Shown: positions 9,454 through 26,211, counted from the first letter of the stretch. The stretch is 41,759 nt of DNA from Candidatus Zhuqueibacterota bacterium (GCA_963169875.1 CAUJEL010000171.1:1-41759), one strand, 5' to 3'. Program-made: numbers and translations. The notes: generated from the sequence alone by a model not told the origin.

Positions 9454-11523
9454 TCAAAGACTACTTGCAGAAGCTCCGATTTTAATAAACGTAGCCTCAA
9501 ATGCCTTACAAGGGCGGTATTGCTGCAGCCGATTTGCGAAGGTAAAAGCATCAGTCATCTCGTAGTGCTGAAAAATATCGAGTCCACGATCCAGGGAGAT
9601 TTTCCAGCCGTGGTCGGTCACGATGTGACGGGAATGGATGGTTTTGTTACTGTCAAACTCCCAGGTAAAGTTTACGCCCACCGTACTGGCCGACTCTTTA
9701 ATCTTCTCAAAGTTTACCTTCTGCTGTTCGCCTTTGAACTCGTCCTCTATTGTTATCAAATGAACCGACACTTCCTCATCAGGAGTTTTAAGCCTGACTA
9801 TAGTTTCTAGAAATTCCATAAAGTTACGCATCTGGTAAAACAGGCGGATATACGGATCGGTGACTGTGATAACGGTTGCTCCCTTGAGATAGGGGCCTAG
9901 CAAAGTATCGAAGGAGAGGCCTTTTTGATTCTCCTGAAAGGTTAGGTGTTTTTCTTTAAGGACAGGCTCGAGCGGTACCCGAGGATCTGACCCGATCTCA
10001 TGCGCAGCGGATTCCGCAGCGTCGGAGGTTTTGCCGTTTTCGTCTTCGCTTATTGATTTGTGGTAATAACTGGGGTATTCCTCCTCTTCGAGCGTGGTGA
10101 CACGCTTGGTATGCTTAGTTGCGTCGGTATAAGCAAAACGGACGATACGGTAGGTGGAATCAATTCGCATCAGTTGGTCTTTAACGCGCTTGCGGCCTTC
10201 AATCGCGAACCGAAGCAATTCCTCAACCTCTTCTTTGCTCGCTTCACCTTGTGGGAACAAAATCTTCATCAGTCCAGAGAAGGTCTTGTTGATACCGTCA
10301 CGATCCCGCGTTGAGATGTCGGAAGAGAGGGAAAAATGGCTTTCATAACGGTCCGAGTAATCATGATTGCGTAATGAGCGTAAAATCTCAGCAAGGTAAT
10401 CCACCACAAATCCGTAACCATTGCAGAACATTTCGCCACGAATGATATCGACCTCCCAGCCCGGAATATAGAAATGGATACGGTCGAGGAACGCAGAGTC
10501 GTAAAACTTTTCAGGCAGTTCGCAAAACAGGTCCGAATGTTTTAGCATGTATGGCACATTGTGCTGGGTGTTACCTACAAAAACCATGGATGCCTCTGCG
10601 CCCAGTGTCTCGATGCCCCGCGAAAAGGACTTGTTGGCCATATAGTTCTTCAAAATGTCGACGAGGGCCTTGTCGACGCGCTTTTGTTTTCCAGCGAATT
10701 CGTCGAAGGCAACGCAATCCCAGTAGCCGACCAGGCCAATCTTTCCTGAGGAGTTATTTACGAACAGCTTGGGGACAGTGACCTCACCACCGGAAAGCAG
10801 GATGCCGTGCGGCGAGAATTCCGAATAGATATGCGATTTACCGGTCCCCTTGGGGCCAAGTTCGATCAGGTTATAGTTGCGCTCGCAATAGGGGATCAGG
10901 CGGATCAGCTGTGTCAGTTTGCTGCGCTTGCCGAACATCTCCGGATTGAAGCCGATGCTCTGCACCAGCAGATCGATCCACTCGTCGGTGGTGAATTGCT
11001 TGCGGGCCTCAACATATCCTTCGAAATCGAACTGGGAGAGTTGGATTGGCTTGAGGGTCGATAAGATCCAGGGGCTGGCGCTTTTATCTTCGGTAAACTC
11101 ATATTCCAGATCAGCAATGCACCACACTCCGCCGACCAGGAGCTTGGGATGCTTTTTCACCGTTCCTGAATCAACAAGTACCTCTTTGATGCCCAGGTTG
11201 GAGAAATCTGCCTCATAGACATCCTTCTTGTCGTTGAGGTCAACACTTATTTTGTCGATGACCTTGTAGCGCCCCTTTTCCTTTATGTTCGAGCGAACTA
11301 ATCCGGCTTCATTCCGGTGAACATAATGTTTGGCAAGGATCTCTTTTACTGTTTCGATGCCGGTCTGGATGGTTGGCTCATCGCTGGTGGCACAATACTG
11401 CCCGAGCAGGTATTCCAGCACGTAGGAGGGAACTATGGCGTTGCCCTTGACCGTTTTGACGAGATCCTTGCGGACAACGAGGCCCGGAAAGTGGGCGTTG
11501 ATTTTTTGATCTAAGGGAGTCAT
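9454..11523 (-). CDS. brxL: BREX AAA+ protein BrxL with an MIT_C-type C-terminus
   Basis: 689 residues. The N-terminal part (about 1-200) and the AAA+ core match type I BrxL: 'AHFPGLVVRKDLVK', 'VPSYVLEYLLGQYCA', 'YKVIDKISVDLN'. Walker A is GPKGTGKS (223-230), Walker B is DCVAFDEF (269-276), a sensor-like 'MVFVGNTQHNV' follows, and 'FLDRIHFYIPGW' holds the arginine region. BrxL is the ring-forming DNA-dependent motor that is needed for phage exclusion but not for host methylation. After 'RKRVKDQLMRI' the usual Lon (S16) domain is missing. Residues about 536-675 instead read 'TVTDPYIRLFYQMRNFMEFL' ... 'IHSRHIVTDHGWKISLDRGL', resembling the MIT_C phospholipase-D-like domain of human MITD1. No GxSxG-type Lon serine motif is visible. 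It is the last gene of the locus, 136 bases after pglZ, so it may have its own promoter. Confidence 0.93.
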   Translation of the reverse strand: MTPLDQKINAHFPGLVVRKDLVKTVKGNAIVPSYVLEYLLGQYCATSDEPTIQTGIETVKEILAKHYVHRNEAGLVRSNIKEKGRYKVIDKISVDLNDKKDVYEADFSNLGIKEVLVDSGTVKKHPKLLVGGVWCIADLEYEFTEDKSASPWILSTLKPIQLSQFDFEGYVEARKQFTTDEWIDLLVQSIGFNPEMFGKRSKLTQLIRLIPYCERNYNLIELGPKGTGKSHIYSEFSPHGILLSGGEVTVPKLFVNNSSGKIGLVGYWDCVAFDEFAGKQKRVDKALVDILKNYMANKSFSRGIETLGAEASMVFVGNTQHNVPYMLKHSDLFCELPEKFYDSAFLDRIHFYIPGWEVDIIRGEMFCNGYGFVVDYLAEILRSLRNHDYSDRYESHFSLSSDISTRDRDGINKTFSGLMKILFPQGEASKEEVEELLRFAIEGRKRVKDQLMRIDSTYRIVRFAYTDATKHTKRVTTLEEEEYPSYYHKSISEDENGKTSDAAESAAHEIGSDPRVPLEPVLKEKHLTFQENQKGLSFDTLLGPYLKGATVITVTDPYIRLFYQMRNFMEFLETIVRLKTPDEEVSVHLITIEDEFKGEQQKVNFEKIKESASTVGVNFTWEFDSNKTIHSRHIVTDHGWKISLDRGLDIFQHYEMTDAFTFANRLQQYRPCKAFEATFIKIGASASSL

Positions 11524-11659: not shown

Positions 11660-14158
11660 TCAGAAGTCGAAATCGTTGGTAAATGATCGCCGCATCAAGT
11701 ACCTGAGCGACTTGTATTCCTTGTAATGTGAAGTCCCGGCGTGTTTTTCCTCCAGCCGCAGGATGACCTCCTGGCCGTTGGCCTCATCGGCTTTGCGGGT
11801 GAGCACAAAGCGCACCTGCAGTTCCCGCTCCCGCGGGTTTTCCGAGCCCAGATCGAAGGTCAGCGCATGGCTGTCGGAGATCAGGTCACCCGCTTCGGTG
11901 TAGATGCCGACCCGCAGCACGCGCGGCTGAATCTTGTCTGTCACTGGCCCGGCCTGGTACAAGGTCACGGCCAGTTGCCCGGAGGTGATCATCGTGCTGG
12001 CTCCACGCAGGATATCGACTTCAACAGTGGTGACATCACTCTGGCGTTTCTTGTTGATCTTGAGCACCGGGATCACCACCTCCTGCAGCGATGCACCACC
12101 ATGCACAAAGCGGCTGCCGGAGCCCTTCAGGCGCAGACGGTTGATCGATTTGGGTATCTGCACTTCCACATCACCGTCAAGCCCAAGCTGCCCGGAGGTG
12201 AACTTGTGCATGCTGGATGCCTCGGCAAGCCCCTTGCCTAGCACGAAGCGGCGGTCGCGGTACAGAACCTGATCTCCCCCGGCATCGATTCCGGAAAAGT
12301 CGCTCTCCTCAATGGCGCGGTTCTGGTAGATGAAGCCATGGTCTGAGGTAACTAGCAAATTGTTGGCGTTGGCCCCGGTCAGTTTCTTGATCAGACGAAT
12401 CAGCTCCTGCAGGGTTTCTTCCACTGCCTCGAAAACCAGTTCCTCGGATTCCTTCTTGTCACCGGTAGCGTCAATCCGGTTGTGGTAGACGTAAATCACA
12501 TCATGATCGCGAACAAGTGCCCGGCACTCCTCCCCTTTCATGGCCATCAACTCATCGGCCCTGCAAGCCGTTGCCCGCTGACTAACTGCCTGGCCGAGAA
12601 TTTTGATGCGGTTGGCTACTCCCTGCGAACTTTTGCCATCCACCAGCACAGCGCCGGTCTCATTGTCGGCAAGCGTCAGTTTTTTGTTGGGCAGCAGTGC
12701 TGCCATGCCAAGCTGGGTATAGCTGGGCAACATCGAGATCGCCGGTTCCAGTTCAGCGCTGTAACGGTCCTCTTGTCTGATGAGACTCAACAGTTCCTCG
12801 CCAATCTCGTAGCGCATGGCGTCGGAGATGATGACGCAGACCTTGTTTTCCTTATGCAGGAACGGCCGTGCCCAATATTCGAAGAACTCATTCTGCCTGC
12901 GCACGGGTAAAGCTTCCCATTTGGCGGCTGTATCCACAAAGGTCTGGAAGCGGTCTCCCAGTTTTAGCAGGTAGTTGTTGGAATAGAGGTTTTCAATCTG
13001 ATCAGTCAAATGGCCCATCAGTGATGCCTGCCCCGACATGCGCACATGGTAAGTGAACTTGCGGTAAAGCTGATCGAGCCGATACCAGAAGCGGCTGTAG
13101 CGCTGCACGCCATCAGCCAGGCTATCCATGGCGAGCTTGGCCTCACTCAGGGCATGGGTAAACTGGGCGGCGAAATCAACCGCCTCATAAAGATGCCGGT
13201 ATTCCCTATACCAATGGCCCTGCCGCCGCTGACGGACCCAGAGCGATACATCGGTGCTGGAGACTGTGCGCGATGCCAACGCCCGCACCAGGTCGCTGAT
13301 GATCTTCTGGTCAATCAGGCGGAAATAATCCAGTTCAATTAACTCGCGGAAATCGCGCTTGGCCAGATCCTGTTCAATACCGAGGACCTCGGCGCATTCT
13401 CCAGAAAGTATCTCGAATCCGCCTTCAAACTGGCGGCTATCCTTCCAATGCTTGAGAAACACCAGGCCGTCGCCGGTGAGTTTCACCTGGCCATCGGTGC
13501 CCATGGCGTAACAAGACTTGAACAACTCAATGGCAAAGTCGCGAATGCCCGGCTCTTCGGACTTGTAGCCATAGCAGCGGGTCATCTGTTCCCAGAAGAA
13601 ACCATCCAGGTTGCATCGGCCAATCAGCTTGATTTTCTCGTCCCGGCCGTCTGCCAACTCCTGCAGCAGGGTTTCCGCCACCGCATCCATGCGCGGCTCG
13701 GTGCCGGTACAGACCGCCAGCATTTTCAGGCGGATTTGTCCGGCGGTGTCGTCGGATTTCAGTAATTTCTTGAGAGCGTCCTTGCGCTTTGCTGCCTGGA
13801 AGAATTCCGCATGGGCCTCCACCATATCGGTGAACTCCAGGCCAAGATCCAGTTCGGACAGCCAGATGGCCACCTGATCGGTGCGGAACACGCCGTGTGC
13901 CAGCTGTACATCCAGCAGCCAGTTGTCCAGATCGGCAGGCTGAGGACCTTCGCGATAGAGCAGGAACTTTTGTTCCGGCTGCTCGCGCAGCAGCCTGTAT
14001 TTGATGCCGTACTCGTTGTTGATCAGCTCCAGCTTCTCGACGTCGGGAAGCTGGAGTGATTCGAAATCGCCGCGCAACTCTTTCTTGGCGTCATACCAGA
14101 AGACGATCCGGTGCCGGTAGAAGAGTTTGGTCAGGGCCTGGGCTATGCGGTTTTCCAT
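11660..14158 (-). CDS. pglZ: BREX-1 phosphatase-like protein PglZ (type A)
   Basis: 832 residues, the usual size of type I PglZ. The N-terminal segment 'HRIVFWYDAKKELRGDFESL' is characteristic. The central alkaline-phosphatase-like core has metal- and nucleophile-type motifs: 'IISDAMRYEIGEEL' (from about 443), 'SMLPSYTQLGMAALLP' (about 475-490), 'HNRIDATGDK' (559-568), 'LLVTSDHGFIYQNR' (601-614) and 'SRFVHGGASLQEVVIPVL' further on. PglZ works with BrxB, BrxC and PglX in both modification and exclusion; its biochemical target in the cell is not settled. The gene starts 12 bases after the pglX stop, so the two are almost certainly cotranscribed. The last ~150 residues form a beta-rich C-terminal region. 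No truncation or missing motif was seen. Confidence 0.95.
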   Translation of the reverse strand: MENRIAQALTKLFYRHRIVFWYDAKKELRGDFESLQLPDVEKLELINNEYGIKYRLLREQPEQKFLLYREGPQPADLDNWLLDVQLAHGVFRTDQVAIWLSELDLGLEFTDMVEAHAEFFQAAKRKDALKKLLKSDDTAGQIRLKMLAVCTGTEPRMDAVAETLLQELADGRDEKIKLIGRCNLDGFFWEQMTRCYGYKSEEPGIRDFAIELFKSCYAMGTDGQVKLTGDGLVFLKHWKDSRQFEGGFEILSGECAEVLGIEQDLAKRDFRELIELDYFRLIDQKIISDLVRALASRTVSSTDVSLWVRQRRQGHWYREYRHLYEAVDFAAQFTHALSEAKLAMDSLADGVQRYSRFWYRLDQLYRKFTYHVRMSGQASLMGHLTDQIENLYSNNYLLKLGDRFQTFVDTAAKWEALPVRRQNEFFEYWARPFLHKENKVCVIISDAMRYEIGEELLSLIRQEDRYSAELEPAISMLPSYTQLGMAALLPNKKLTLADNETGAVLVDGKSSQGVANRIKILGQAVSQRATACRADELMAMKGEECRALVRDHDVIYVYHNRIDATGDKKESEELVFEAVEETLQELIRLIKKLTGANANNLLVTSDHGFIYQNRAIEESDFSGIDAGGDQVLYRDRRFVLGKGLAEASSMHKFTSGQLGLDGDVEVQIPKSINRLRLKGSGSRFVHGGASLQEVVIPVLKINKKRQSDVTTVEVDILRGASTMITSGQLAVTLYQAGPVTDKIQPRVLRVGIYTEAGDLISDSHALTFDLGSENPRERELQVRFVLTRKADEANGQEVILRLEEKHAGTSHYKEYKSLRYLMRRSFTNDFDF

Positions 14159-14170
14159 GAATATCGCTCC

Positions 14171-17100
14171 TTAATCCTCTTCTGCATCCAGGCCGACGAT
14201 TTTTTTCAAAGCAGCACCAAGTTTGGGATAGTTTACCTTCACGCCGTCGTCGAGGTCGATCTCTACCTGCTCGGTGGCCAGCGGGTAAAGTACTTCGCGC
14301 TCGTACTCTTCCATCTCGGCAATCATTTTAGTGATCTTTTCGATCTCTTTCAGGGCCCTGGTTTTCTCCGCTTGCGATGCAGAACCGCTGATGCTAATCG
14401 CTGCCAGATGGTTCTTGTGTGAAGTGAGCTTGGTACGGAACTCGCGCAAGTAGTTATTGAGCACCAGGCTGACTGTATCCGGGCGGTAACGATGCATGTA
14501 GATCAGCGCGTTGAAGCTGCCCTTCGTGCTGGAGAATAGCCAATAGATGGGGCGCTTCTTGTAGCGTTTCACATGGTCGGTGTAGAACTCGCTGAGGAAA
14601 TAATCGCGGATGCTGTAGTCGCGTTTGCCCTTTATGTTCAGTGCCTGCTCGACGAAGCGGAGGTTGTCCTCATAATGTTCCTCGCCAAAGGCCACGCGCA
14701 GGAACTTTCGGAAGCGCTCGGCGATGTCGTCGGTGAACCAGTCGCCATCCAGCATGGGGATGACGTTGTCATTGTCGGCCGGGAAGCTCGGTTCCGGAAT
14801 CCGCTTCAGATAGTCCTCGATGGTCTCGCCCTGGTTGGCCAGGATCAGCCCTGGCTTGTCCAGCGCATAGCGGCCAAACATGCAGCCAACGGCATAGGAG
14901 ACCAACTCGTTCATGGTATCGGCCAGCAGCAGCTTCTCCAACTCGTCTTCGCTCTTGCCGTTGCCGTAGCGGTAGTGGGGGTTGCAGGTCAGGGTGATCT
15001 CGTTGAGCGGCACCTCGGGCGTCAGCTCATCCTGCAGGCCATAGGCCTCGATGAAGATGCGGTTATTCTCTTCCTCCAACCGCTGCATCTCCAGCGTGAT
15101 CTCCCGCCAGTGGGCGCGGAGCTTCTGGTAGGTGGCCTTCAGGGTTGGCTGGTGGTAGTCAGGATTCAGCAGCGGCTGGCTGGTGAAATCCCAGGAGGTT
15201 TCGAAGGAGTCCCAGTCTATCCTTGCCGTAGCCACCAGCTCTCTAATTTGTGAGCAACTCCCTTCTGTTTCTTTCAAAGGTAATTTCGATACGACGCCAC
15301 CGTTAAAGTCTAATGTTGGAGAAAGAGCCGCTAAGAAGTAGTACGCGACTTTAGAGTTTAACAATCCAAGCAAATTATCTTTGTCGCTTTCGGATTTTGG
15401 GAAGAGCATTTGCCCCTTTGTATCAAATAAAAATCCGTACCCATTATCTCTGAGCGAAAAATCAGCAGATGACAAGGAAGACCATGTCAAGCCGTTCAGG
15501 AAATAGAAATCCTGATTCCAGCATTTTGAGTTATTCGGAGTTATCCTGCCATGTTCTAAATCTCTGCGCTTTCGTTCTTTAATGTCGAAGCCGTCGTTTT
15601 CCCAGTTAATGGAGTATTCCTTGTTTCCGTGCCATTTGCGATAACCGCCACCTTTGTTGTGAGGAAACCATCTTGCTTTCGACTCAACTGACTCTTCCCT
15701 TGAGCGACAGGTTGGCCGAAACTTCTGTGCACTAACTTCAAACCAATACCTTAGAAATGTGTCATTGTCACCCGTTTGTAGTCCGGCCCTGAATGTCGCC
15801 TTTTCGCTTAAGGGAATATTAATAAAGGCATCCCTCGCTTGCTTGCTAATCCAGTAAGCAATAGGGCTTCCGGGAATCGCCAAAACATCGGAAACTGAAG
15901 TAGTAAATCGCCAGCCACATCTAGGATTCAATACACTTTCTCGAAGAGCTTGCTCTTTTTCCCTCTCTGAATTCCCCTTGACTAAACGCAAATACACCCC
16001 TTCGAAATTTGGGTTGACGCTATTCGCAATAACAAACGCTGTAGTCGAAACCACCTCTCCACTTATGCTGTCGAAAGCTCTAGCGCCAAGGTGCGCCATT
16101 GATCTTATTGTTCCTTGGTGAAGAAGTTTAGAGCGCACTCCTTCATACGATGACAAGAACATCCAGCTTTGCATGGTTATCATCGCTATCAGGCCGTCAT
16201 GCATCGTCAGACCAAGATTTCGCTCAATGAACATAGCGAAAAGGTCTGATTTGCTGATGATGTAATTGTCTTGAACCCATGCCTTGAGTCTTCCATTCAT
16301 CCCGCCTCTTCCCATATACGGCGGGTTAGCAATCACCACATGGTATTTCGGGCTCAGGTAATCAGCCTGCCGCAGGGCTTGCAGCACCTTCTGATGGGTC
16401 ATGCTGTTGAAGAACGAGTGACTAGTGGCCAGTGACCAGTGGCTAGTCAGATAGTCCCGGAGCTTGGTGCATTGCTCAGAGGTGAGGTGTGGACGGACGA
16501 GTGAACCAAAGTTGTCCGCCTCCTCGAAAAGATTCAGGTCGTGCAGAATGTCTTCGCGCGAGGCGCCACAGGCCACTGGCCACTGATCACTAACCACTAA
16601 CTCGTTTTCATCGAAAACGAGTTTCTCCAGCACGCAGATATTCGGTCTGACACCCTTGCTGAAGAAGCGGTGCTGTTTGGCGCGAGCCTTCATGGTCAGC
16701 GCAAAGGCCGCCAGCTCCCCGGCGCGTTCGTCGATATCGATGCCGTAGAGGTTATTCGTTAGGATCTTCTCTGGAATCTCGCCGGGCTCGTACCCTTCCT
16801 CCTCGTAGATAGCGTAGAGAAGGTCGAATGCATAGGTGAGCATGTGGCCAGAACCACAGGCTGGGTCGCAAATCTTGATCTCTTCTGGCTTCTCGATGCG
16901 CAAATAGTCTGTCTCGGCCTGTTCAGGCTTGATGTAATAGTCCATTTTCTCGACCAGCTTCGAGCCAGGTCGATTGAGCAGCCACAGGCGGCCGAGAGAG
17001 TTTTCGACCAGGTAGCGGACGATCCAGTGTGGAGTGAAAAGCTGGGTGGCGGCTGGGATGTTCTCGGGGGTGATTTTCTGATTTTTCTTCAGCCCTTCAA

Positions 17101-17737
17101 ACACCTCGTCCTTCTTCTCGGAGATATAGAACTGGTAGAGCCAGCCGATCACCTCGACGTCTTTGCAGGCATCCGGCGTCATCGCCTCGCGTGTATAAGC
17201 GAGGATGGAGTTGCCCGAAAGCAGGTCGTCGGGCATCAGCAGCTCGGTGTAGTCATCGATGCGCTGGAATAGGAAAGGCATGGCCTTGTTCCAGAAGTTG
17301 CAGGCGGCTACAACCAACAGGCGGTAGGCCTCGCCCTGCGGGTCACGGCTGGGCGCTTTGCCGTCAAGCAGGGCGAAGATCTGCTGCCGGACCTTGTCGT
17401 GTACCATCTCTTCGTCGATGTGCCCCATTTTGGCTTCGGCCAGAATCTCGGGCTGGAACTGTCCCTCAAGGGGCGACACCACACCGATGCGGGTATAGCG
17501 GTTCACGTCCATGAAGCGCAGGGCGCAGAAACGATTGAACCAAACGTAGGCCACCCGTTCGATGATTTGTTCCTTGCCGTGCCCCTTGAGGGCCTCTTCG
17601 AGTTTCTTGACAGCCTCGGCACTTTCGCGCCGGGCGGCGCTGTTTTCTGCAAGCACTAGTTTCAGTTTGGCGGAGACCAGATCCATCAAGCTGCGCCGGG
17701 CGAACTGGGCGAATTTTTTCAGTTTCGCTGTTTCCAT
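14171..17737 (-). CDS. pglX: BREX-1 adenine-specific DNA methyltransferase PglX
   Basis: About 1188 residues. Amino-methyltransferase motif I is 'ICDPACGSGHML' (around residue 293) and motif IV is 'VIANPPYMGRGG' (around residue 473), the N6-adenine type. PglX methylates a non-palindromic site to mark host DNA and is the specificity factor of BREX. The C-terminal half (specificity/target recognition region) is full length. I chose ATG at 17735-17737 (METAKLKKFAQ); a GTG at 17743 would overlap the upstream nuclease stop by 4 bases (GTGA). Either way the gene directly follows the nuclease gene, implying translational coupling. Between motifs I and IV the frame contains two short inserts built from heptamer repeats ('VVSDQWPVACGAS' and 'LTSHWSLATSHSFF'), which look like selfish or slippage-derived DNA tolerated in frame. 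The recognition site cannot be inferred here. Confidence 0.95.
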   Translation of the reverse strand: METAKLKKFAQFARRSLMDLVSAKLKLVLAENSAARRESAEAVKKLEEALKGHGKEQIIERVAYVWFNRFCALRFMDVNRYTRIGVVSPLEGQFQPEILAEAKMGHIDEEMVHDKVRQQIFALLDGKAPSRDPQGEAYRLLVVAACNFWNKAMPFLFQRIDDYTELLMPDDLLSGNSILAYTREAMTPDACKDVEVIGWLYQFYISEKKDEVFEGLKKNQKITPENIPAATQLFTPHWIVRYLVENSLGRLWLLNRPGSKLVEKMDYYIKPEQAETDYLRIEKPEEIKICDPACGSGHMLTYAFDLLYAIYEEEGYEPGEIPEKILTNNLYGIDIDERAGELAAFALTMKARAKQHRFFSKGVRPNICVLEKLVFDENELVVSDQWPVACGASREDILHDLNLFEEADNFGSLVRPHLTSEQCTKLRDYLTSHWSLATSHSFFNSMTHQKVLQALRQADYLSPKYHVVIANPPYMGRGGMNGRLKAWVQDNYIISKSDLFAMFIERNLGLTMHDGLIAMITMQSWMFLSSYEGVRSKLLHQGTIRSMAHLGARAFDSISGEVVSTTAFVIANSVNPNFEGVYLRLVKGNSEREKEQALRESVLNPRCGWRFTTSVSDVLAIPGSPIAYWISKQARDAFINIPLSEKATFRAGLQTGDNDTFLRYWFEVSAQKFRPTCRSREESVESKARWFPHNKGGGYRKWHGNKEYSINWENDGFDIKERKRRDLEHGRITPNNSKCWNQDFYFLNGLTWSSLSSADFSLRDNGYGFLFDTKGQMLFPKSESDKDNLLGLLNSKVAYYFLAALSPTLDFNGGVVSKLPLKETEGSCSQIRELVATARIDWDSFETSWDFTSQPLLNPDYHQPTLKATYQKLRAHWREITLEMQRLEEENNRIFIEAYGLQDELTPEVPLNEITLTCNPHYRYGNGKSEDELEKLLLADTMNELVSYAVGCMFGRYALDKPGLILANQGETIEDYLKRIPEPSFPADNDNVIPMLDGDWFTDDIAERFRKFLRVAFGEEHYEDNLRFVEQALNIKGKRDYSIRDYFLSEFYTDHVKRYKKRPIYWLFSSTKGSFNALIYMHRYRPDTVSLVLNNYLREFRTKLTSHKNHLAAISISGSASQAEKTRALKEIEKITKMIAEMEEYEREVLYPLATEQVEIDLDDGVKVNYPKLGAALKKIVGLDAEED
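16416..16454. repeat. Heptamer-periodic insert in pglX, copy A
   Basis: The plus strand reads GTGACTA GTGGCCA GTGACCA GTGGCTA GTCAGATA, a tandem of 7-base units of the form GTGrCyA. It stays in frame and encodes 'LTSHWSLATSH' on the minus strand. Sequence of this kind is unlike the surrounding codon pattern. Confidence 0.7.
16570..16621. repeat. Heptamer-periodic insert in pglX, copy B, plus 21-base hairpin
   Basis: The minus strand reads TTAGTGG TTAGTGA TCAGTGG CCAGTGG CCTGTGG, the same heptamer family as copy A but in the opposite orientation. It is next to a perfect 9-bp inverted repeat, CTCGTTTTC (16601-16609) and GAAAACGAG (16613-16621). In frame it encodes 'ELVVSDQWPVACGA'. Confidence 0.7.
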
Positions 17738-17739
17738 TA

Positions 17740-18282
17740 TCACAACCCAACCAAATGATTGAACTGAAGGTGATGAGGTGATGAAATTTTCAAAAATTTC
17801 TCCGGTGAATCATGCAGTGGTGACGATTTGTGTCGGGATGGTTTATTATTGACGCTTACATTAACCATGCCAATATACCGATGTGCATAACCATCGAGAA
17901 ATGCATTTTCGTTCCAGAAATGCTTTCCAATTTCTTTGCAATAGGAAATTACGCAGGAAGCACCCTTAAGTTGTTTAATTATATAGCTGCTATCCTTTGG
18001 GCCAGCCTTCAGTTCAACATAAAGAATGACTTTTTTCTCTTCGCTAATAATAATGAAATCAGCCCGTTTGCATTCTCCTTTATCGCCTTTAAAAAATGTC
18101 TTTGGCGTGGGAAATTCGTCAGCTTTTATGACAAGAGCATCGGTAGGTATATTGCGGATGAATGAAACAGAATTCTTGTGTCCTTCTTCATGGAGCTTGA
18201 TGATTGGTTTACCATATTCATACTCATGCGGAACCAGCGCAGATTCTAGAATCAGTTCAGAGAGGATTTCAATATCCTGCAT
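17740..18282 (-). CDS. PD-(D/E)XK nuclease-like partner of the adjacent AAA ATPase
   Basis: About 180 residues. The segment 'KRADFIIISEEKKVILYVEL' followed by 'KAG' and 'IKQLKGASCVISYC' gives D76, E91-x-K93 and Q105 (numbering from the upstream GTG). That is the D-(14)-ExK-Q arrangement of PD-(D/E)XK nucleases, with the expected beta-hairpin and following helix. Predicted role: DNA- or RNA-cleaving effector controlled by the ATPase encoded just upstream. ATG at 18280-18282 overlaps the ATPase stop by one base (TGATG); a GTG at 18285 would overlap by four. GGGGAGGGGATGA gives a strong ribosome-binding site. The stop sits 2 bases before the pglX ATG. It lacks the DUF4435/TOPRIM features of AriB from PARIS. 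It is not a known BREX core protein. Family name unknown; the fold call is by motif only. Confidence 0.7.
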   Translation of the reverse strand: MQDIEILSELILESALVPHEYEYGKPIIKLHEEGHKNSVSFIRNIPTDALVIKADEFPTPKTFFKGDKGECKRADFIIISEEKKVILYVELKAGPKDSSYIIKQLKGASCVISYCKEIGKHFWNENAFLDGYAHRYIGMVNVSVNNKPSRHKSSPLHDSPEKFLKISSPHHLQFNHLVGL

Positions 18283-19676
18283 CACTCATCCCCTCCCCAA
18301 ATGATCTCTTCCTGGATTCGATTCATATCCTCTATGGTTTTGTCGAAACTGCGTGCCTCTATCCCAAGGCTGCTATCAATGTTGGCTTGAACAAGTGTTT
18401 GGCATCTTTTTTTGCGTTGTGCCCCATCCAGCTTAATGAGTGCTTCTTCTGCTATGTACACTCTTACCTTGTCGGGACTTAACATTTCAAAATCGTAGTA
18501 ATGCTCACGATCAGCAAGTGCTTTTAGCCGCTCTCCTCCCTGATTAAGCATAATCAGGGTATTCAGTTCTTTAATGATGTAGTCGCTGTGTGTCGTGATA
18601 AACACCTTGATTCCAATATTGACCAATCGCGCAAAAAGCCGTGCAACCCTCCGCTGATTATCCGGATGCAGATTCAGTTCTGGCTCATCAACCATCAGAA
18701 GGTCGCCCGGGGCGGCTACATGGCGAAGGTAAAAACCAATATCCAGCAACGAACGTACTGCGCTTGAACTTTCGACAAGTGAAAGCTTTACCCGCTTGTT
18801 CGCAGATGGAATGAACTGGACTTCTCCGTCTTTGCTAACGTTGTAATGCCCACCGATAATGTCCTCAAAGGATCTGAGGATTTCAGAGTGATTTTTTAGT
18901 ATGAAACTTCCCTTGTTTTTTAAATCAGGTAAAGTTCGTATAAAATCAACATTCCTGCGGACTGCAATAGGATATTCGCCACTAAACTTGCTCAAGAACT
19001 GAATAGGGTGCAATTTCGATGATTTTTCCCCCAACATTTCAACCAGGCGATTCTTTGTAAAATCCAGTTCTTTCTGAAAAATTGCAGCGCCAGTTCTTTC
19101 GGCACTTGCAAGAAAGGGTTTTGGAACTAGCTTTCCAAGGACAGTAGCAGCAATTCCTTCGCCGATCATATTCTCTATAATATGCTTTGGTGGCAGATCA
19201 TCGTTATCCTTCTCTAAAATCAGGCTGGCCACTAATTCGTATTTGGATTCCGATGAAGAAATCTGCAGGACACTCCGCTTGGCTGTACCATACTTTATAT
19301 GAACCTTGGTCGGCGAAAGTGAATCTGCTGTTCCCAGACTAAACGTTAGTTCAGCGTTTTCAAACCGGCTCTCATTGCCAGCGAATACTCGATACATAAT
19401 CTTTGAGTACCGCCTACTTGCATCATTCAAGTAACTTTGCAAGCGGTCAAAGTATGGTTGCAGCGGGATATTTACAGAACCCTCTTTTAGAAGTTTTTCT
19501 ATAACATCGTTCTCAAAAGGGAACTCCTCATTTGTTCGGAGGTAATCGAAAAATCCATAAGCGGCATGCATAGCATATGTTTTACCAGTGTTATTTTGTC
19601 CACAAATAATTGTCAGTTCCCCGAGAGTAAACTCGGCCTGTTTAATAGGGCCAAGATTTTTTATGGAAATCTTCAT
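18282..19676 (-). CDS. AAA_15/OLD-like ABC-type ATPase, BREX-embedded accessory
   Basis: 464 residues. The N-terminus 'ISIKNLGPIKQAEFTLGEL' and Walker A 'CGQNNTGKTY' (GQNNTGKT, 26-33) are typical of RecF/OLD-type ATPases. Walker B is 'LLMVDEPELNLHP' (about 326-338) and the switch histidine is in 'FITTHSDYIIKELN' (H363). The protein ends without a TOPRIM domain, so catalysis is expected from the separate nuclease encoded next. Its architecture is like AriA of PARIS or PtuA of Septu: an ATPase that senses phage and releases or activates a partner nuclease. GAGGAG lies about 10 bases before the ATG. Upstream are 249 bases holding a brxC-tail remnant and a repeat-palindrome array, so this gene probably begins a sub-operon that runs ATPase-nuclease-pglX-pglZ. 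Confidence 0.85.
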   Translation of the reverse strand: MKISIKNLGPIKQAEFTLGELTIICGQNNTGKTYAMHAAYGFFDYLRTNEEFPFENDVIEKLLKEGSVNIPLQPYFDRLQSYLNDASRRYSKIMYRVFAGNESRFENAELTFSLGTADSLSPTKVHIKYGTAKRSVLQISSSESKYELVASLILEKDNDDLPPKHIIENMIGEGIAATVLGKLVPKPFLASAERTGAAIFQKELDFTKNRLVEMLGEKSSKLHPIQFLSKFSGEYPIAVRRNVDFIRTLPDLKNKGSFILKNHSEILRSFEDIIGGHYNVSKDGEVQFIPSANKRVKLSLVESSSAVRSLLDIGFYLRHVAAPGDLLMVDEPELNLHPDNQRRVARLFARLVNIGIKVFITTHSDYIIKELNTLIMLNQGGERLKALADREHYYDFEMLSPDKVRVYIAEEALIKLDGAQRKKRCQTLVQANIDSSLGIEARSFDKTIEDMNRIQEEIIWGGDE

Positions 19677-19689
19677 TTCATCGTTCTCC

Positions 19690-19743
19690 TCAAATCTGAA
19701 TTGTTTTCCCTTTGCGGATTTCTTCCAGCAGCGTCGCGCGTAT
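19690..19743 (-). pseudogene. Degenerate duplicate of the 3' end of brxC
   Basis: The minus strand encodes 'IRATLLEEIRKGKTIQI' and a stop. The true brxC (stop at 21426) ends in 'MREAMLEEIRKGKRIQI'. By eye 12 of 17 residues and 41 of 54 bases agree, with many of the differences at third codon positions, so the copy comes from a diverged brxC allele rather than a fresh duplication. A stop codon lies directly before it. It sits 13 bases upstream of the ATPase start, between that gene and the 12-bp repeat array. Confidence 0.8.
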
Positions 19744-19764
19744 TTATCGTGCGAGCCTAATATG

Positions 19765-19820
19765 TTCTATGCACGATTCTATGCACGATTCTATACACGA
19801 TTCTATACACGCGTGTATAG
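19765..19820. promoter_or_regulatory. Four 12-bp repeats ending in an 18-bp perfect palindrome
   Basis: Units TTCTATGCACGA (19765, 19777), TTCTATACACGA (19789) and TTCTATACACGC (19801) are head-to-tail. The last unit continues into CTATACACGCGTGTATAG (19803-19820), a perfect dyad whose half-site is the repeated unit itself. A multi-site operator or iteron array is the simplest reading, placed upstream of the ATPase-nuclease-pglX-pglZ genes and downstream of a wHTH protein that could bind it. It could also be a recombination site at the edge of an inserted cassette. Confidence 0.6.
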
Positions 19821-19925
19821 TATAAAATCGGAAATCGCGGCTTTTCAGCGCTATGAACATATTTTCGTTCATGGAGCATAAATACGAACGGGTACACATT
19901 ATGTATCCATTTCGGCTGTTTGCCC

Positions 19926-21416
19926 TCATGGCGCATTCCTTTTTATCCACTCTTTACCCGCTGCGGTCAACCGGTATTTCTGCAAGCGGCTGTTGGGTTT
20001 GGCGGGGATGGTCATTTCGATCTTACCCTGTCCAAGCAAAAGGCGGAGTTGCTTTTTCAGTTCACCGGACACGGTTTTGTGACCAAGTTTTTGCGCCAGC
20101 TCGGCTTTTCCCGAAGGCTCTTGCGCTAGCAATAAAAGTACTTTGATGGCCAATGCTGACTCGGGCCGTAACTCGGGCCGTGACTCGGGCCGTGACTCGG
20201 GCCGTGACTCCAGGGTGGTGACTTCCAGTCTCTCGCCAAACTCCGGCACTTTGACTACTATTCTAAACACATCTCCCTCAACAAGTTCCGGATCTGCTCC
20301 GCCATATGCCCGACTGTATTTCATCATTTTGCGCATGCCGGAGCCGAGTTCGTCGGCGCGACCAATCTGGCGAAAGAATTTGGCAATCACAGGGTTCTTG
20401 GGGAAAGGAGTAAATGTTTCCGGATCAAGCCGGCCAAAGCCATGGGGACGACTGCTGTTCTCGGTGCGCACTATACCACGCTCGATGATGAGCTTGGCGG
20501 GGAAGGCGTTCATGTATTCCCGATGGATCAGGATGTTCGAAGCCACTTCTCGAAAGATAGCGTCGCGGATGCTGATGCTGGTGGTCCCTTCCAGAAAAAA
20601 CGGGTCGGGCAGGTGTTTGTGGATAAAAGCCATGATTCGTTCATAACTTTCCACCAGATTGACATCGACGAAATCGCGGTCATCGTAGCGATCAAGATTC
20701 ACTTTGCGCAGGATCAGATCGGTGCGGTGGTGGGGTACCGTATTCAACAACGGCAGTTGCTTCCCCAGCAGCAGAATCCCCGCCAGGGTAATACCGCTTG
20801 CACCACTTTCTGGACTGGTCTGATAAAGCTGGGCGCTTTTGAGCAGCTCCAGATCATCCAAATCTTTCCATGGATGATTTTCCCAACGGAGGGTCGCAAT
20901 CTTGCGGCATTTGGCGATCAGATCACGGTCCAGATCATCAAGCAGAAGATGAGGAAAGATTCTGTTTTCGCTATAGGTTGACTGTTTGCGCTGATATAGG
21001 TGTGCAACCTGGGCCGTATTGTCTGTGATATCGAAATCTCCATCCTCATTCCGATCAAAAATACGGCCATTGCAGCGGTGGACCTGTGAACTTTCCGGCA
21101 CATAAATGTAAAGCAATTTTTTGCCTTCCAATTCAGCATCTAAAATGGAAAGGTAGGTCGGCGGCGTCAGTTTCTGCGGATTGTTGATGCCGGTGACAAA
21201 GTCCTTGCGAATCTGATCGAGCTCGCCCGGATCAATTCCAACAATCGAACCGTCATCAGCCACGCCCAGCAGCAGGGTGCCCCCATGCCGATTCAAAAAA
21301 GCGCACACAGTCTGATAAACAGATTTGGGCAATTGATCGCGACAAGCCTTGAACTCAACATCAAGCCCCTCGCCTATTGCAATCATTGCCTGTAATCTTT
21401 GTTCATCGGTGTTCAT
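19926..21416 (-). CDS. AlbA_2 / HATPase-like putative transcriptional regulator
   Basis: 496 residues. The N-terminal AlbA_2 (Schlafen-type, DNA/RNA-binding) domain shows 'EGLDVEFKACRDQLPKSVY' and 'FLNRHGGTLLLGVADDG' (about 16-56). The middle has an HATPase_c_4-like segment, 'IFREVASNILIHREYMN' (about 288-304), and 'GRADELGSGMRKM'. After a linker made of SRPE repeats (about 403-420) comes a C-terminal winged-helix region (about 421-490). Such proteins are usually called RecG-like or divergent AAA_4 regulators; they occur in defence islands and some control them. It starts 9 bases after the brxC stop with GGAAGC before the ATG, so it is read with brxA-brxB-brxC. It is not a BREX core gene and may replace the BrxR-type regulator, which is absent here. 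The gene lies between the true brxC tail and a second degenerate brxC tail, suggesting insertion as a cassette. Confidence 0.8.
   Translation of the reverse strand: MNTDEQRLQAMIAIGEGLDVEFKACRDQLPKSVYQTVCAFLNRHGGTLLLGVADDGSIVGIDPGELDQIRKDFVTGINNPQKLTPPTYLSILDAELEGKKLLYIYVPESSQVHRCNGRIFDRNEDGDFDITDNTAQVAHLYQRKQSTYSENRIFPHLLLDDLDRDLIAKCRKIATLRWENHPWKDLDDLELLKSAQLYQTSPESGASGITLAGILLLGKQLPLLNTVPHHRTDLILRKVNLDRYDDRDFVDVNLVESYERIMAFIHKHLPDPFFLEGTTSISIRDAIFREVASNILIHREYMNAFPAKLIIERGIVRTENSSRPHGFGRLDPETFTPFPKNPVIAKFFRQIGRADELGSGMRKMMKYSRAYGGADPELVEGDVFRIVVKVPEFGERLEVTTLESRPESRPESRPELRPESALAIKVLLLLAQEPSGKAELAQKLGHKTVSGELKKQLRLLLGQGKIEMTIPAKPNSRLQKYRLTAAGKEWIKRNAP
20158..20205. repeat. Four 12-bp repeats coding an SRPE linker
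   Basis: Four tandem copies of (G/A)ACTCGGGCCGT, in frame with the AlbA_2 gene, code for repeated S-R-P-E before the winged helix. The unit length is four codons, so copy-number change would lengthen or shorten the linker without breaking the frame. Confidence 0.85.
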
Positions 21417-21425
21417 CTTTGCTTC

Positions 21426-24400
21426 CTAAATCTGAATCCTTTTTCCCTTGCGTATCTCTTCCAGCATCGCTTCGCGCATGGATTCCAGGTAGCGTTCTAC
21501 ATCGGTCTCGTCGGCTAGCCAGGCTTTATCGAAAGAGACCTTCACAGAGCGGCTGGGCACATACTCAATGGGCGGTTCCGGCTTGGCGTGTGGCGCAGGT
21601 TTCGCCTCTTTAACCAGCGTAGCGGTTTCACTGGATTTCGGCGCGGGCTTGGGTGTTGGCGCCGGTTGCGCCCATGATGTCAGCTGCGAAAGCAGACGCT
21701 GGTACTCGCCTTCCTCAAACCGGCGCAGGGTATCGCGGATGACGGCAATTAATTTTTGGCGCTCAAGGTCAGCTATGATTTCGTTGAACGGTCGGGTGAT
21801 CTGATCCTGTTGATCACCATTCAATGCGCTAAATTCAGCCATGCCGCAGAGACGGGCTTTCAAAGCGGTGACCGTCTCCTTTGCCTTGGCAATCTCGGCC
21901 TCAATCTGATCGGTGATTTTCTTCTGCAGCCTTTCGACTTGCGTCTTCACCTGCTGCATACGGTTGCCCCTGAAACATTCCAGATCGGTCAAGCTGGCGA
22001 CCACCTGAGCGGTTTCGTCGCCTTCGATATAGGAAAAATTGGGCTCCTGATTTTGAACGAACCTGCAGGCGTTATCGAAAATGCCCCTCTGCGGACCGCC
22101 CATGAATTTGCGGACGGGATCGATGACGCTTTCCTTCATATCGAGCAGCGCGTCTTCCTGGTGGGTGAGTTCGGTCAGATACCAGGAATAAGGCTTGCCG
22201 GTCAGATCCTTGAGCTTTTCAAGGACTGGTGTCAGCGCATTCAGGAACGGATATTGGGATGCCTGTGCCGCCAGCAGTGTGAGCTGATGCGAGAGATCCT
22301 GGAGCGCGGTGCCGGTTTCCTTGCCGAGCGCCTTCGCTTCACTGGCGCGGGGCGGGGCATCGAAAAAGTCCTCAAAGAATTCTTTGAGTGCACGGACCTG
22401 TGAAGCTGTAAATTCGACCTGCGGTTCCAGCACCACATTGCCGTGACCATGGGTGTTGCGCAGTGCCCGTTCCAATTCATCCTCTTCGAGCAGGTTGCCA
22501 TCGGCGCGAACCTCGACTTTGCCGCGCGCGCACAGGTTGGCCAGGGTACAAAGCACAGCAGCGTAGTACCAGCCGTACGGTTTGCGCTCGAACTTCTCCA
22601 GCAGGTTTTTCAGGGTGGTACGCACGCCACCCCGGTTATTGCTCTGAATAAAAGCCAAAAGCTCTTGCTCAGACTCAGCCAGAGATGTGGCATCATTGCC
22701 GAACAGCCCCTGCTGCGAATGCTTGAGGCATTTGCCGATGTCGTTCTCGGTATAAGCGATGCCGCGCAGCATGCGAAGGTTCGGATAGGCACGGGAGATG
22801 AGCTCGTGGAATCCGCGCACTATACGGGTCTGCGCGTCCTCTGAACCGATTTCAATGTCGGTGCCTGCCACGAGCAACTTGGCTTTGCCCATCAGGCTTT
22901 GCACACGCTGCTGCACATCGCTGTAGCGTTCCCGGTTCTGGAAGCCTTTATCGGTCAGAATGCGTTTCACCGCTTCCTGTTGCGTGATCGAAATAGTCTG
23001 ACGGATGTATTTCTCTGTCTTCTTATACATGAGGATGTCACGAACAAGACGTTCATCCGCAGGCATCAGGATCAGCAACTCGTCCCGGCCCATGCTTTGC
23101 ATCCGCAGGATTGACTCGTTTTCGGCATTTTCATGGAACGGGCTGATCGCATGGATGGCCAGCTCGTATTCCCGCCCATGCAGCCGATCATCGAGCTTTC
23201 TGGAGAACGCGTAGTCCTGGCCATTTTCGTCGTAGCGGATCTTCCGATGCTTGATGATATGGTCAAATATTATCTTTTCAAGTTCAGCGGCAACATCCGA
23301 TGACTCCACCTCGGTGTTCTTGATTTCCTGCTCGACATCTTTTTCCTCGTCTGTGAGGTATTCGTAAAGCTCGCCATTACGCTGCACATAAGTCTGCTGT
23401 TCCAGTAGCCTGAGAGCTTCTTCGACACACTTTCTCAGCGCAGGCAGATCCTGATTAAAGCTGTCAAGCATCAGGACGCACAGGTTGCGAACGGTCGGTT
23501 TGAACTCTTTGATGTATTTTACCAAAAAGAGGGTTTTCAACAGCCGTATCGCAAATGGACCATCGAGATGCTTTTCTGCCTTGATGATGGCTTGCTGGAT
23601 ATTGGATTTCAGCGTGGTGCGAATGCCCTCGAACATCAGATCAAAGGTTGCCAAATGACCAATTTCATGCTTCTCGATCTGTATAGCTACCTGCTGGAAC
23701 ACGCCCAGCATGGAGCGTTCACCCACCGAGCTATGCTTGCCCTCAAAAGCGTTATGCTGCGAAAGATTCTGAATGGCCGATTGGAAAAGCGCAAACTGGT
23801 ACGGAATGAACGGATAGCCATGAATGAAATGATCCCGATCCTGAAAATTCCTGTAGGTTTGTGAGCCGTCGGCAAAGTCGAATAGTGTCTTAAAATTGTT
23901 GGACTGCGCGTGATAAATGTCCGACAGAAGACGAACGCCTTCTTCGGTTTTCATGAGTAGACGCTTCTGGATAACTTCCGCCACATCGGCGCTGGTCAAC
24001 TTCATGCGATTAGCGAATCGGGCCTGAATTTTTGAAAAGTCGTTGCCTTGTTGTTTGCCCATCTCGCCGACAACCGTCCCCATGTCTTCCTGGGCGGTAA
24101 CGATGACCCATGCGCGGCCTCTGCATTTGGTGGCCAGGCTCTCGGCGATGGTCTGGAGGTTGGTCATCAGCTTGATGTTTTCTGCAATGTACTGACCGAC
24201 CTCATCAACAAAAAAGTTCAGGCGGAAATTGGGAGATTGCCGCTCGATATAAGCATGCACCTGTTCGGCAAAATCTTCGATGGAGACACGGTATTGGCTG
24301 CGGTATTTATCCAGTATCCCCAAGGCCGATACCTCGTCACCACCGGTTGTCTGGGCATAGGCTTTGGCAATATTGTTAGCTTCGAGCAGGGCCTGCTCGC

Positions 24401-24988: not shown

Positions 24989-25600
24989 TTATGCTTCGCA
25001 GTGAAAGATATTGAAGGCCCGGTAATATTTGTCGTCATGCAGTCTTCCAAAGAGATCGAGCGATGCTCCCGACTCCAGGGAGTGGGTGTATGCTCCCGGG
25101 AAAAACATGACGGTCGGTTTCTCTTTCGCCGTGCTTTGCAAATTGTTCAAAACGTTGTGTGAGCGGATGTAGGGGAACACCTCTCCAACACCGCACAGAA
25201 AGAGAACATCGAAATCCGTGCTTGCCAGCTTGGTTGCAATGGCCGGAACAAGGTGCGCTTCGGGGTCCAGTACGCCTTGCAACAGTTCCTTGAGCTGCTC
25301 TTTGGCGACAGTATTCTCCATCTCGAGAATCTGCTCCCAGATGTCACGTTCTTTGAGGATTTCGATCGAAAGGTCATAAAGGTTAATCTGCAGAATCCGA
25401 ATACCGGCCTGCTCAAGACGGTTGACAAGCAGACGCTGGAGCCGGCCCATTTCGACAGACTCTTCCGGCTTGAAAGGACAGATGAAGAACGGAACCTCGT
25501 TGCCGAGACCTTGCTTGTTTAGAAAACGTTTACTCGAGATCACAGAAAAGAGATGTTGAAATCTGTCTTGCATTGGCATTCCGCCACTATGAGCTGTCAC
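24989..25600 (-). CDS. brxB: BREX protein BrxB (DUF1788)
   Basis: 203 residues from the GTG at 25598-25600, which overlaps the brxA stop by four bases (GTGA) and has GAGGGGGA about 8 bases upstream, indicating translational coupling. In-frame ATGs at residues 8 and 10 are alternative starts; family members usually begin close to 'MQDRFQHLFSVISS'. The conserved C-terminal segments 'FLCGVGEVFPYIRSHNVLNN' and 'DKYYRAFNIF' identify DUF1788/BrxB. BrxB is small and cytoplasmic, with no known catalytic activity. It is essential in type I BREX and is thought to bridge PglZ and the other core proteins. Confidence 0.93.
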   Translation of the reverse strand: MTAHSGGMPMQDRFQHLFSVISSKRFLNKQGLGNEVPFFICPFKPEESVEMGRLQRLLVNRLEQAGIRILQINLYDLSIEILKERDIWEQILEMENTVAKEQLKELLQGVLDPEAHLVPAIATKLASTDFDVLFLCGVGEVFPYIRSHNVLNNLQSTAKEKPTVMFFPGAYTHSLESGASLDLFGRLHDDKYYRAFNIFHCEA

Positions 25601-26211
25601 CGCTTAATCCCCCTCACATCGGAATCAAATGCAGGAAAGTACAAAACCTCATTGTGATTGCTTTGATGGATCAGCTCCAGCAGTCGTGGAGTGAGCATGG
25701 CGGCATTAATGAAGTTGTTGGTATTTATGATGTCCGCATCTTTAAGTATCTTGAACAGGACTTGCCGCAATTTGTTTCTCGTCGCGGGGCTGATCGCATC
25801 CAATTCTGCATGCCATTCGGATTTTCGGTTTAAGAAAGAGTCAAAATCCTCATAGGTCAAATCAGTCTTTAAACTGATATAGCGCTCTCGAATCACTTCG
25901 ACCGCAAAATCCGCGATAAATTTATAGCGACGGCATACGGCGAGCCAAAGTAGAGAACCTTGCTCTTGATGGCTGGCTTTAACAAGGAATTCAAGCTCAG
26001 TTGGATTCAGAGTCATCAGTCGAGAGACAATTTCACGGTAGACTCGCTTAAGCGAATTCAGTGTTCTGGTTTGTAACAGGTTCTCCGCAATAACTTTGTC
26101 ATGGACTGAATTCCAATCACCAAGATCAAGATACAGAGCGGCAAGCTTTACCGACTCACGGTGAAAGAGACTGCCTGTTGTAAATGACATGATGTACCTG
26201 TCGTTGCTCAT
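25597..26211 (-). CDS. brxA: BREX protein BrxA (DUF1819)
   Basis: 204 residues, first gene of the locus. 'YIMSFTTGSLFHRESVKLAA' at the N-terminus, 'TLNSLKRVYREIVSRLMTLN' and 'LLWLAVCRRYKFIADFAVEV' match DUF1819, an all-helical, NusB-like small DNA-binding protein. In several type I systems BrxA contributes to phage exclusion but not always to methylation. Start ATG at 26209-26211; AAAAGGA lies about 12 bases upstream, so the ATG at codon 8 is an alternative. Upstream is a leader of about 195 bases from a candidate promoter; no regulator gene such as brxR precedes it. Confidence 0.93.
   Translation of the reverse strand: MSNDRYIMSFTTGSLFHRESVKLAALYLDLGDWNSVHDKVIAENLLQTRTLNSLKRVYREIVSRLMTLNPTELEFLVKASHQEQGSLLWLAVCRRYKFIADFAVEVIRERYISLKTDLTYEDFDSFLNRKSEWHAELDAISPATRNKLRQVLFKILKDADIINTNNFINAAMLTPRLLELIHQSNHNEVLYFPAFDSDVRGIKR

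Follow-up and report, generated by a model that had tools for sequence, protein, structure and literature searches.

The type I bacteriophage exclusion (BREX) operon on a 41,759-nt stretch of DNA from Candidatus Zhuqueibacterota bacterium (GCA_963169875.1, CAUJEL010000171.1:1-41759; this whole stretch is called the window) raises the question why the end of its core gene brxC is present twice. The operon is complete and lies on the minus strand in the order brxA, brxB, brxC, AlbA_2, ATPase, partner, pglX, pglZ, brxL. A direct repeat of 52 nt with 79% identity connects the end of the intact brxC (21428-21479) with a second, diverged copy on the same strand (19692-19743). This copy is located 1.7 kb past the real brxC end, between the AlbA_2/Schlafen gene and the ATPase pair. 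Its translation is IRATLLEEIRKGKTIQI followed by a stop codon, and 12 of 17 residues are equal to the brxC end MREAMLEEIRKGKRIQI, which also runs into a stop. The first-pass annotation of this DNA had claimed such a copy, with only an AlbA_2/winged helix-turn-helix gene and a repeat-palindrome array between the two tails. Both claims were borne out, as the domains were matched and the array was located.

The copy comprises about 17 codons, is directly preceded by an in-frame TAA and has no ATG, GTG or TTG start codon. Therefore, it is a remnant and not a gene, and the peptide did not prove to be a conserved part of an unrelated gene. Chance is excluded as its origin. A profile built from 20 residues of brxC ends scored the remnant with 41 bits (best-suffix), the maximum in 20 shuffles of its own interval was 14.3 bits, and 1.6 Mb of shuffled DNA gave nothing above 12 bits. 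The genome of the window contains no second close brxC (the other match is only 26% identical), which excludes another resident copy as the source of the remnant.

The best explanation, with a probability of roughly 0.8, is a two-parent exchange behind brxC that would have left a cut-off tail as the leader of the ATPase gene, the same process being at work at pglX. Its observed parts are the repeat, the collinear junction, the recurrence with different cargo and scar lengths, and the pairs of empty and filled loci at both sites. What we infer is the route of recombination and, for the window, the order in which the events took place. The comparison set consisted of 80 related BREX loci from one public-genome scan (L-numbered; brxC 64-91% identical), plasmid loci and 13 further stretches. 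The latter came from added searches of 395, 251 and 86 genomes, most returns of which duplicated existing loci. About 73 brxC-pglX intervals were compared.

Loci with brxC directly before the ATPase family of the window do exist, as the first-pass annotation had anticipated (L091, L025, L028, L031, L050, L037 and L071), and in the first five of these a PDC-M47A-type ATPase follows straight after brxC. The remnant, a GGAG motif, the spacer and the ATPase start are collinear with the intact brxC-ATPase junction of L091 over 161 nt at 81% identity. Through the L050 junction, the alignment of remnant and ATPase extends over 1,515 nt at 69%. The layout of GGAG, spacer and start codon behind the scar is the same as in the intact junctions of L091 and L025. 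The spacing is +14 between remnant and ATPase and +13 or +14 at native brxC-ATPase junctions, and the +10 between brxC and AlbA_2 in the window is usual for AlbA_2. These alignments largely support the view that the remnant would be the tail of a brxC which once ran directly into the ATPase gene. The proposal that recombination split an ancestral junction of these two genes is thus supported by the intact junctions, but the process concerns neither AlbA_2 nor brxC alone.

The remnant carries the GGAG and the start codon used by the ATPase. It might therefore have been kept by selection as a leader, through ribosome binding or translational coupling, with its history being incidental. We consider this quite unlikely, since seven AlbA_2-ATPase loci have no recognisable brxC tail (L040, L044, L045, L049, L064, L079 and L082) and the tail of L085 lacks its stop codon.

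Scars of this kind recur, and besides the window four more loci at brxC and five at pglX carry genes flanked by two core-gene tails. The brxC scars (window, L023, L027, L052 and L085; 5 of ~73 intervals) are all preceded by an AlbA_2 gene and followed by a second module. Their lengths are ~131 nt in L027, 69 nt in L085 (stop lost), ~52 nt in the window, 36 nt in L052 and 28 nt in L023. They occur in 5 of 12 intervals with stacked modules and in none of the 61 others (Fisher p = 5e-5). A search of 494 gene ends covering all BREX genes found second tails at brxC and pglX only (Fisher p = 2e-4), the exceptions being paralogous AlbA_2 genes and one weak reverse-strand match; both p values overstate independence, as the loci are related and not phylogenetically independent. 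No second tails were detected for brxA (79 ends), brxB (90), pglZ (35) or brxL (14).

The five pglX scars have lengths of ~57 to ~130 nt and stand behind cargo unlike that of the brxC site. The cargo in L031 and L135 consists of a PIN toxin and a small partner, which precede a YhcG gene; in L091 it is a YhcG nuclease gene, in L057 Septu PtuA/PtuB and in L070 a zeta-toxin/kinase-like gene. L135 is one of the 13 further stretches, among which no second brxC tail was found. The scars of L031 and L135 probably go back to one event, which gives about nine events overall. L027 may have a third scar, AAAAGGAATCAAATATGATC ahead of the ATPase, but this is unconfirmed; the short fragment in front of it, guessed to be DinD-like, has no Pfam match.

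Two further observations concern these loci. In L052 (16445-16923), a further decayed brxC tail (55% identical) comes after a pglX start of 105 residues, and the contig ends there; this suggests a chain of exchanges. In L057 (15313-20028), L070 (4981-11604) and L131 (3629-11134), pglX is split into two open reading frames (approximately residues 2-604 and 613-1190), which are separated by a gene similar to that of the AlbA_2 protein. The intervening gene of L057 contains only the C-terminal HATPase and winged-helix-type part.

Tyrosine recombinases integrate islands at the 3' ends of genes and restore the gene. The insertions described here are likewise found at fixed gene ends with the reading frame restored, and the repeat could accordingly be a duplicated attachment site. 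Unlike in such islands, the BREX repeats are variable in length (~28-131 nt at brxC, ~57-130 nt at pglX), the copies are diverged (about 20% in the window), the scars decay and no identical core of fixed length is present. In addition, the exchanged segments carry no integrase or recombinase gene; they contain AlbA_2, YhcG, PIN/antitoxin-like, Septu or kinase-like genes only. Because of the variable scar lengths and the unequal copies, site-specific integration is disfavoured and we regard it as extremely improbable. Transposon insertion was rejected, as the inserts contain no transposase and the repeat length varies.

Close relatives with and without an insert were compared at both sites. At brxC, the empty locus L016, in which the ATPase pair directly follows brxC, and the filled locus L023 share ~91% identity from brxA through brxB to brxC. 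In L023, the final ~250 nt of brxC are diverged and foreign to the group, and AlbA_2 comes next. Homology to L016 resumes at the last ~28 nt of brxC (AAATCCGCAAAGGAAAAAGGATTCAAATATGA) and, at 94%, extends across the ATPase pair. The L023 AlbA_2 protein reaches ~80% to Halomonas and Marinobacter-type loci and ~71% to its own brxC group. At pglX, L016 is empty and L091 filled, with backbones that are 95-96% alike. In L091, pglX has different last codons and is followed by the YhcG nuclease gene, after which come a pglX tail and a pglZ leader of the native type seen in L016. Both pairs show an insert that apparently brought its own core-gene 3' end and left the native tail behind.

A local tandem duplication of the brxC end in a single parent, with later insertion of AlbA_2, would also yield two tails per locus. 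The remnant is, however, nearer to the tail of L020 (42/48) than to its own brxC (38/48), from which it differs by silent changes where the protein sequence is conserved. For the two tails an identity ranking is given instead of a tree, because 17 codons carry too little signal. The remnant is also collinear with the ATPase junction of other loci. In L023 it is the scar and not the real brxC end that matches the empty relative, and in L091 the native last codons and the pglZ leader are found with the scar instead of the real pglX end. A tandem duplication is therefore very unlikely.

Exchanges without a scar were found as well. L016 and L091 differ by a clean swap of HEC-02 and PDC-M47 whose joins coincide with the stop of brxC and the start of pglX. 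L076 and L081 are about 90-99% identical in brxC to ~codon 925 and ~60% to its end, carry different modules and are 86% identical in pglX; the difference, which extends to the pglX start, is a plain homologous replacement in which brxC end and module travel together. A greater divergence of brxC ends between loci with different modules than between loci with the same module was only a weak effect outside the closest pairs and is not used as main evidence. An abrupt loss of identity near the brxC 3' end was also seen among otherwise close relatives (L025, L050, L076 and L084), and such cases suggest that this end may frequently be replaced.

Taken together, two BREX loci with different add-on genes behind brxC would recombine, the incoming DNA consisting of the 3' part of the core gene and an add-on gene. 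One end of the exchange would be formed by pairing in homologous core-gene DNA, and the other by an illegitimate join within the brxC of the other parent, some tens of bases ahead of its stop codon. The outcome would be a whole brxC with its own tail and AlbA_2, followed by the truncated brxC tail of the other parent leading the ATPase pair. brxC would stay intact because the incoming DNA supplies the full 3' end, the new module would adjoin the core gene, and the resident tail would remain ahead of the older module. If both ends are homologous, the module would be replaced free of scars, in line with the large number of loci without a scar. Add-ons would thus be swapped, or stacked with a scar between new and old, at two places, the 3' ends of brxC and pglX. 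The necessity that incoming DNA brings a complete brxC tail would be explained by the C-terminal ~80 residues of BrxC, which form a dimerisation motif in the Acinetobacter protein (PMC13326643).

The most likely process, by analogy, would be homology-assisted illegitimate recombination. For sequential effector displacement in type VI secretion system (T6SS) clusters of Vibrio cholerae, homology-facilitated illegitimate recombination was proposed (Kirchberger et al., 2017; PMC5361080), and the displacement of Rhs C-termini is cited in that paper. Common to both systems is a new module behind a constant gene part, an older one shifted downstream with a 3' remnant, and the absence of an integrase. 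The hallmark of displacement, a 3' remnant of the upstream gene before the older module, is present here. In T6SS clusters, the remnant comes from the displaced effector and orphan immunity genes are kept, whereas in BREX it is the tail of a core gene, the operon is intact and two core genes are involved.

The same structure would also result from the opposite order, in which the ATPase pair arrived last together with its brxC tail; the homologous end would then lie in pglX and the illegitimate one directly after AlbA_2. The 3' half of the ATPase, the partner and the pglX start of the window (16931-18798) are 84% identical to L028 over 1,868 nt. The identity to L028 is 78% in brxC, which is nearer to L016 and L091 (86-88%), and a mosaic boundary lies inside the ATPase gene. 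In addition, the proteins of the window and L091 are 91% alike for brxC and 60% for the ATPases. By these comparisons, the mosaic ATPase-pglX side of the window could equally be the newcomer. L023, however, is the only locus with a brxC scar for which a near-identical empty relative was found, and there the ATPase pair is part of the backbone (94%), whereas the foreign piece comprises AlbA_2 and the brxC end. Arrival of the ATPase pair last is thus possible but rather unlikely.

Several points speak against an exchange by recombination at brxC. The L016/L023 pattern fits one homologous and one non-homologous end, but comparison of the window brxC with its relatives gave no clear breakpoint, and the homologous end was not located. 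The identity over the 48-nt tails assigns neither tail to a donor. L016, L018 and L091 have different modules and yet brxC ends that are >90% alike, which means that in some swaps hardly any brxC sequence, or none, was transferred. Inspection of 53 E. coli BREX records revealed no second brxC tail. All named scar loci are metagenome assemblies; chimeric assembly is not expected to yield decayed scars with lost stop codons. On balance, the data largely support the interpretation that recombination at the 3' ends of brxC and pglX may be the way in which BREX swaps its add-on defence genes.

Varied add-on genes are found in BREX and other defence operons, and it had been unclear how an exchange of these genes can leave the core unbroken. 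The gene brxU of type I BREX is located between brxC and pglX (PMC8565348). For Salmonella StySA, an ATPase-DUF4435 pair (ariA/ariB, PARIS) was proposed to be a later acquisition than the BREX core (PMC9009780, PMC12205998). The modules described here resemble both as interchangeable defence genes inside the BREX operon, brxU even being in the same interval, and the consulted passages of this literature contain no description of core-gene tail scars or of an exchange mechanism. A Schlafen RNase with minimal histidine kinase and winged helix-turn-helix was reported for BREX loci of at least 1017 taxa (Rakesh and Krishnan, 2026; PMC12839542). The AlbA_2 gene of the window appears to match this accessory class by its domains; the survey catalogues effectors and, in the consulted passages, does not treat their movement. 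No description of core-gene tail scars in BREX was found in the open-access literature. Such scars mark single exchange events in sequence and show which module arrived where. A search for genes that are enclosed by a core gene and a duplicate of its tail also offers a route to unrecognised defence genes.

The relatives do not share the remnant or one gene order, and remnant-free orders are common. The brxC-pglX interval contains little or nothing in 16 loci, AlbA_2 alone in 18 and an ATPase pair matching PADLOC HEC-02A/B in 16. AlbA_2 together with the HEC-02 pair occurs in 9 loci and the PDC-M47 pair in 4, and other contents are single cases. The window is the only complete interval with AlbA_2 and PDC-M47; L085 looks alike but its contig ends.

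Short inverted-repeat arrays were found at the 3' flanks of AlbA_2 in BREX loci (31 examined, among them L018, L020, L042 and L057). The array sequence varies by locus, with TATGCGC, TATGAGC, ATACGAGC and TATACACG types. Six-base stems reach a mean of 4.9 per 110 nt compared with 0.8 in shuffles (z > 3 in 20 of 31 flanks), and no comparable excess was detected at the flanks of HEC-02 pairs. It is conceivable, but doubtful, that the palindrome array is the working end of a mobile cassette, which folds or breaks and thereby promotes joining beside the brxC tail, where the motif ATGCGCGA resembles the array units. If true, BREX would exchange cassettes, with no integrase, at a site that combines the 3' end of a core gene with a structured end of the cassette.

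Table 1. Features of the BREX operon in the window.
Feature	Position	Strand	Annotation
brxA	25597..26211	-	annotated
brxB	24989..25600	-	annotated
brxC, BREX type I ATPase, intact, 1183 aa	21426..24977	-	
brxC 3' end, intact-gene copy of the direct repeat	21428..21479	-	
AlbA_2/Schlafen gene, module between the two brxC tails	19926..21416	-	SLFN_AlbA_2, HATPase_c_4 and winged-helix-type C-terminal domain
Short inverted/tandem repeat array, 3' flank of the AlbA_2 gene, ending near the scar	~19760..19835		
brxC 3'-end remnant (scar), IRATLLEEIRKGKTIQI and stop, no start codon	19690..19743	-	
Retained native-type junction behind the scar: GGAG ribosome-binding site, spacer, ATPase start codon	19674..19689	-	
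ATPase gene	18282..19676	-	Pfam AAA_15; PADLOC PDC-M47A, also PD-T4-4_A
ATPase partner gene	17740..18285	-	PADLOC PDC-M47B
pglX methyltransferase; 3' end is a scar site in relatives	14171..17743	-	
pglX 3' end/pglZ start; empty counterpart of the L091 site with YhcG nuclease and pglX tail scar	14158..14220	-	
pglZ	11660..14158	-	annotated
brxL	9454..11523	-	annotated

The SLFN_AlbA_2, HATPase-type and winged-helix-type domains of the AlbA_2 gene scored 68.7, 26.2 and 36.8 bits, all above the curated cut-off, the HATPase barely. The ATPase and its partner form a PD-T4-4-like/PDC-M47 two-gene module, with matches to PDC-M47A (and PD-T4-4_A) and then PDC-M47B. The BREX island looks acquired: among 59 relatives, none had a match to the ATPase at E <= 1e-30, and in a set of 98 relatives brxC was matched at best partially and at ~30% identity. 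The genome of the window contains one further AlbA_2 homologue, which was rejected as the source of the AlbA_2 gene, being only 29% identical. The linker of the AlbA_2 protein (20157-20216) contains a 12-nt in-frame tandem repeat encoding ESRPESRPESRPELRPES, and the AlbA_2 gene of L085 has a different repeat at a similar place (about 4760-4835).

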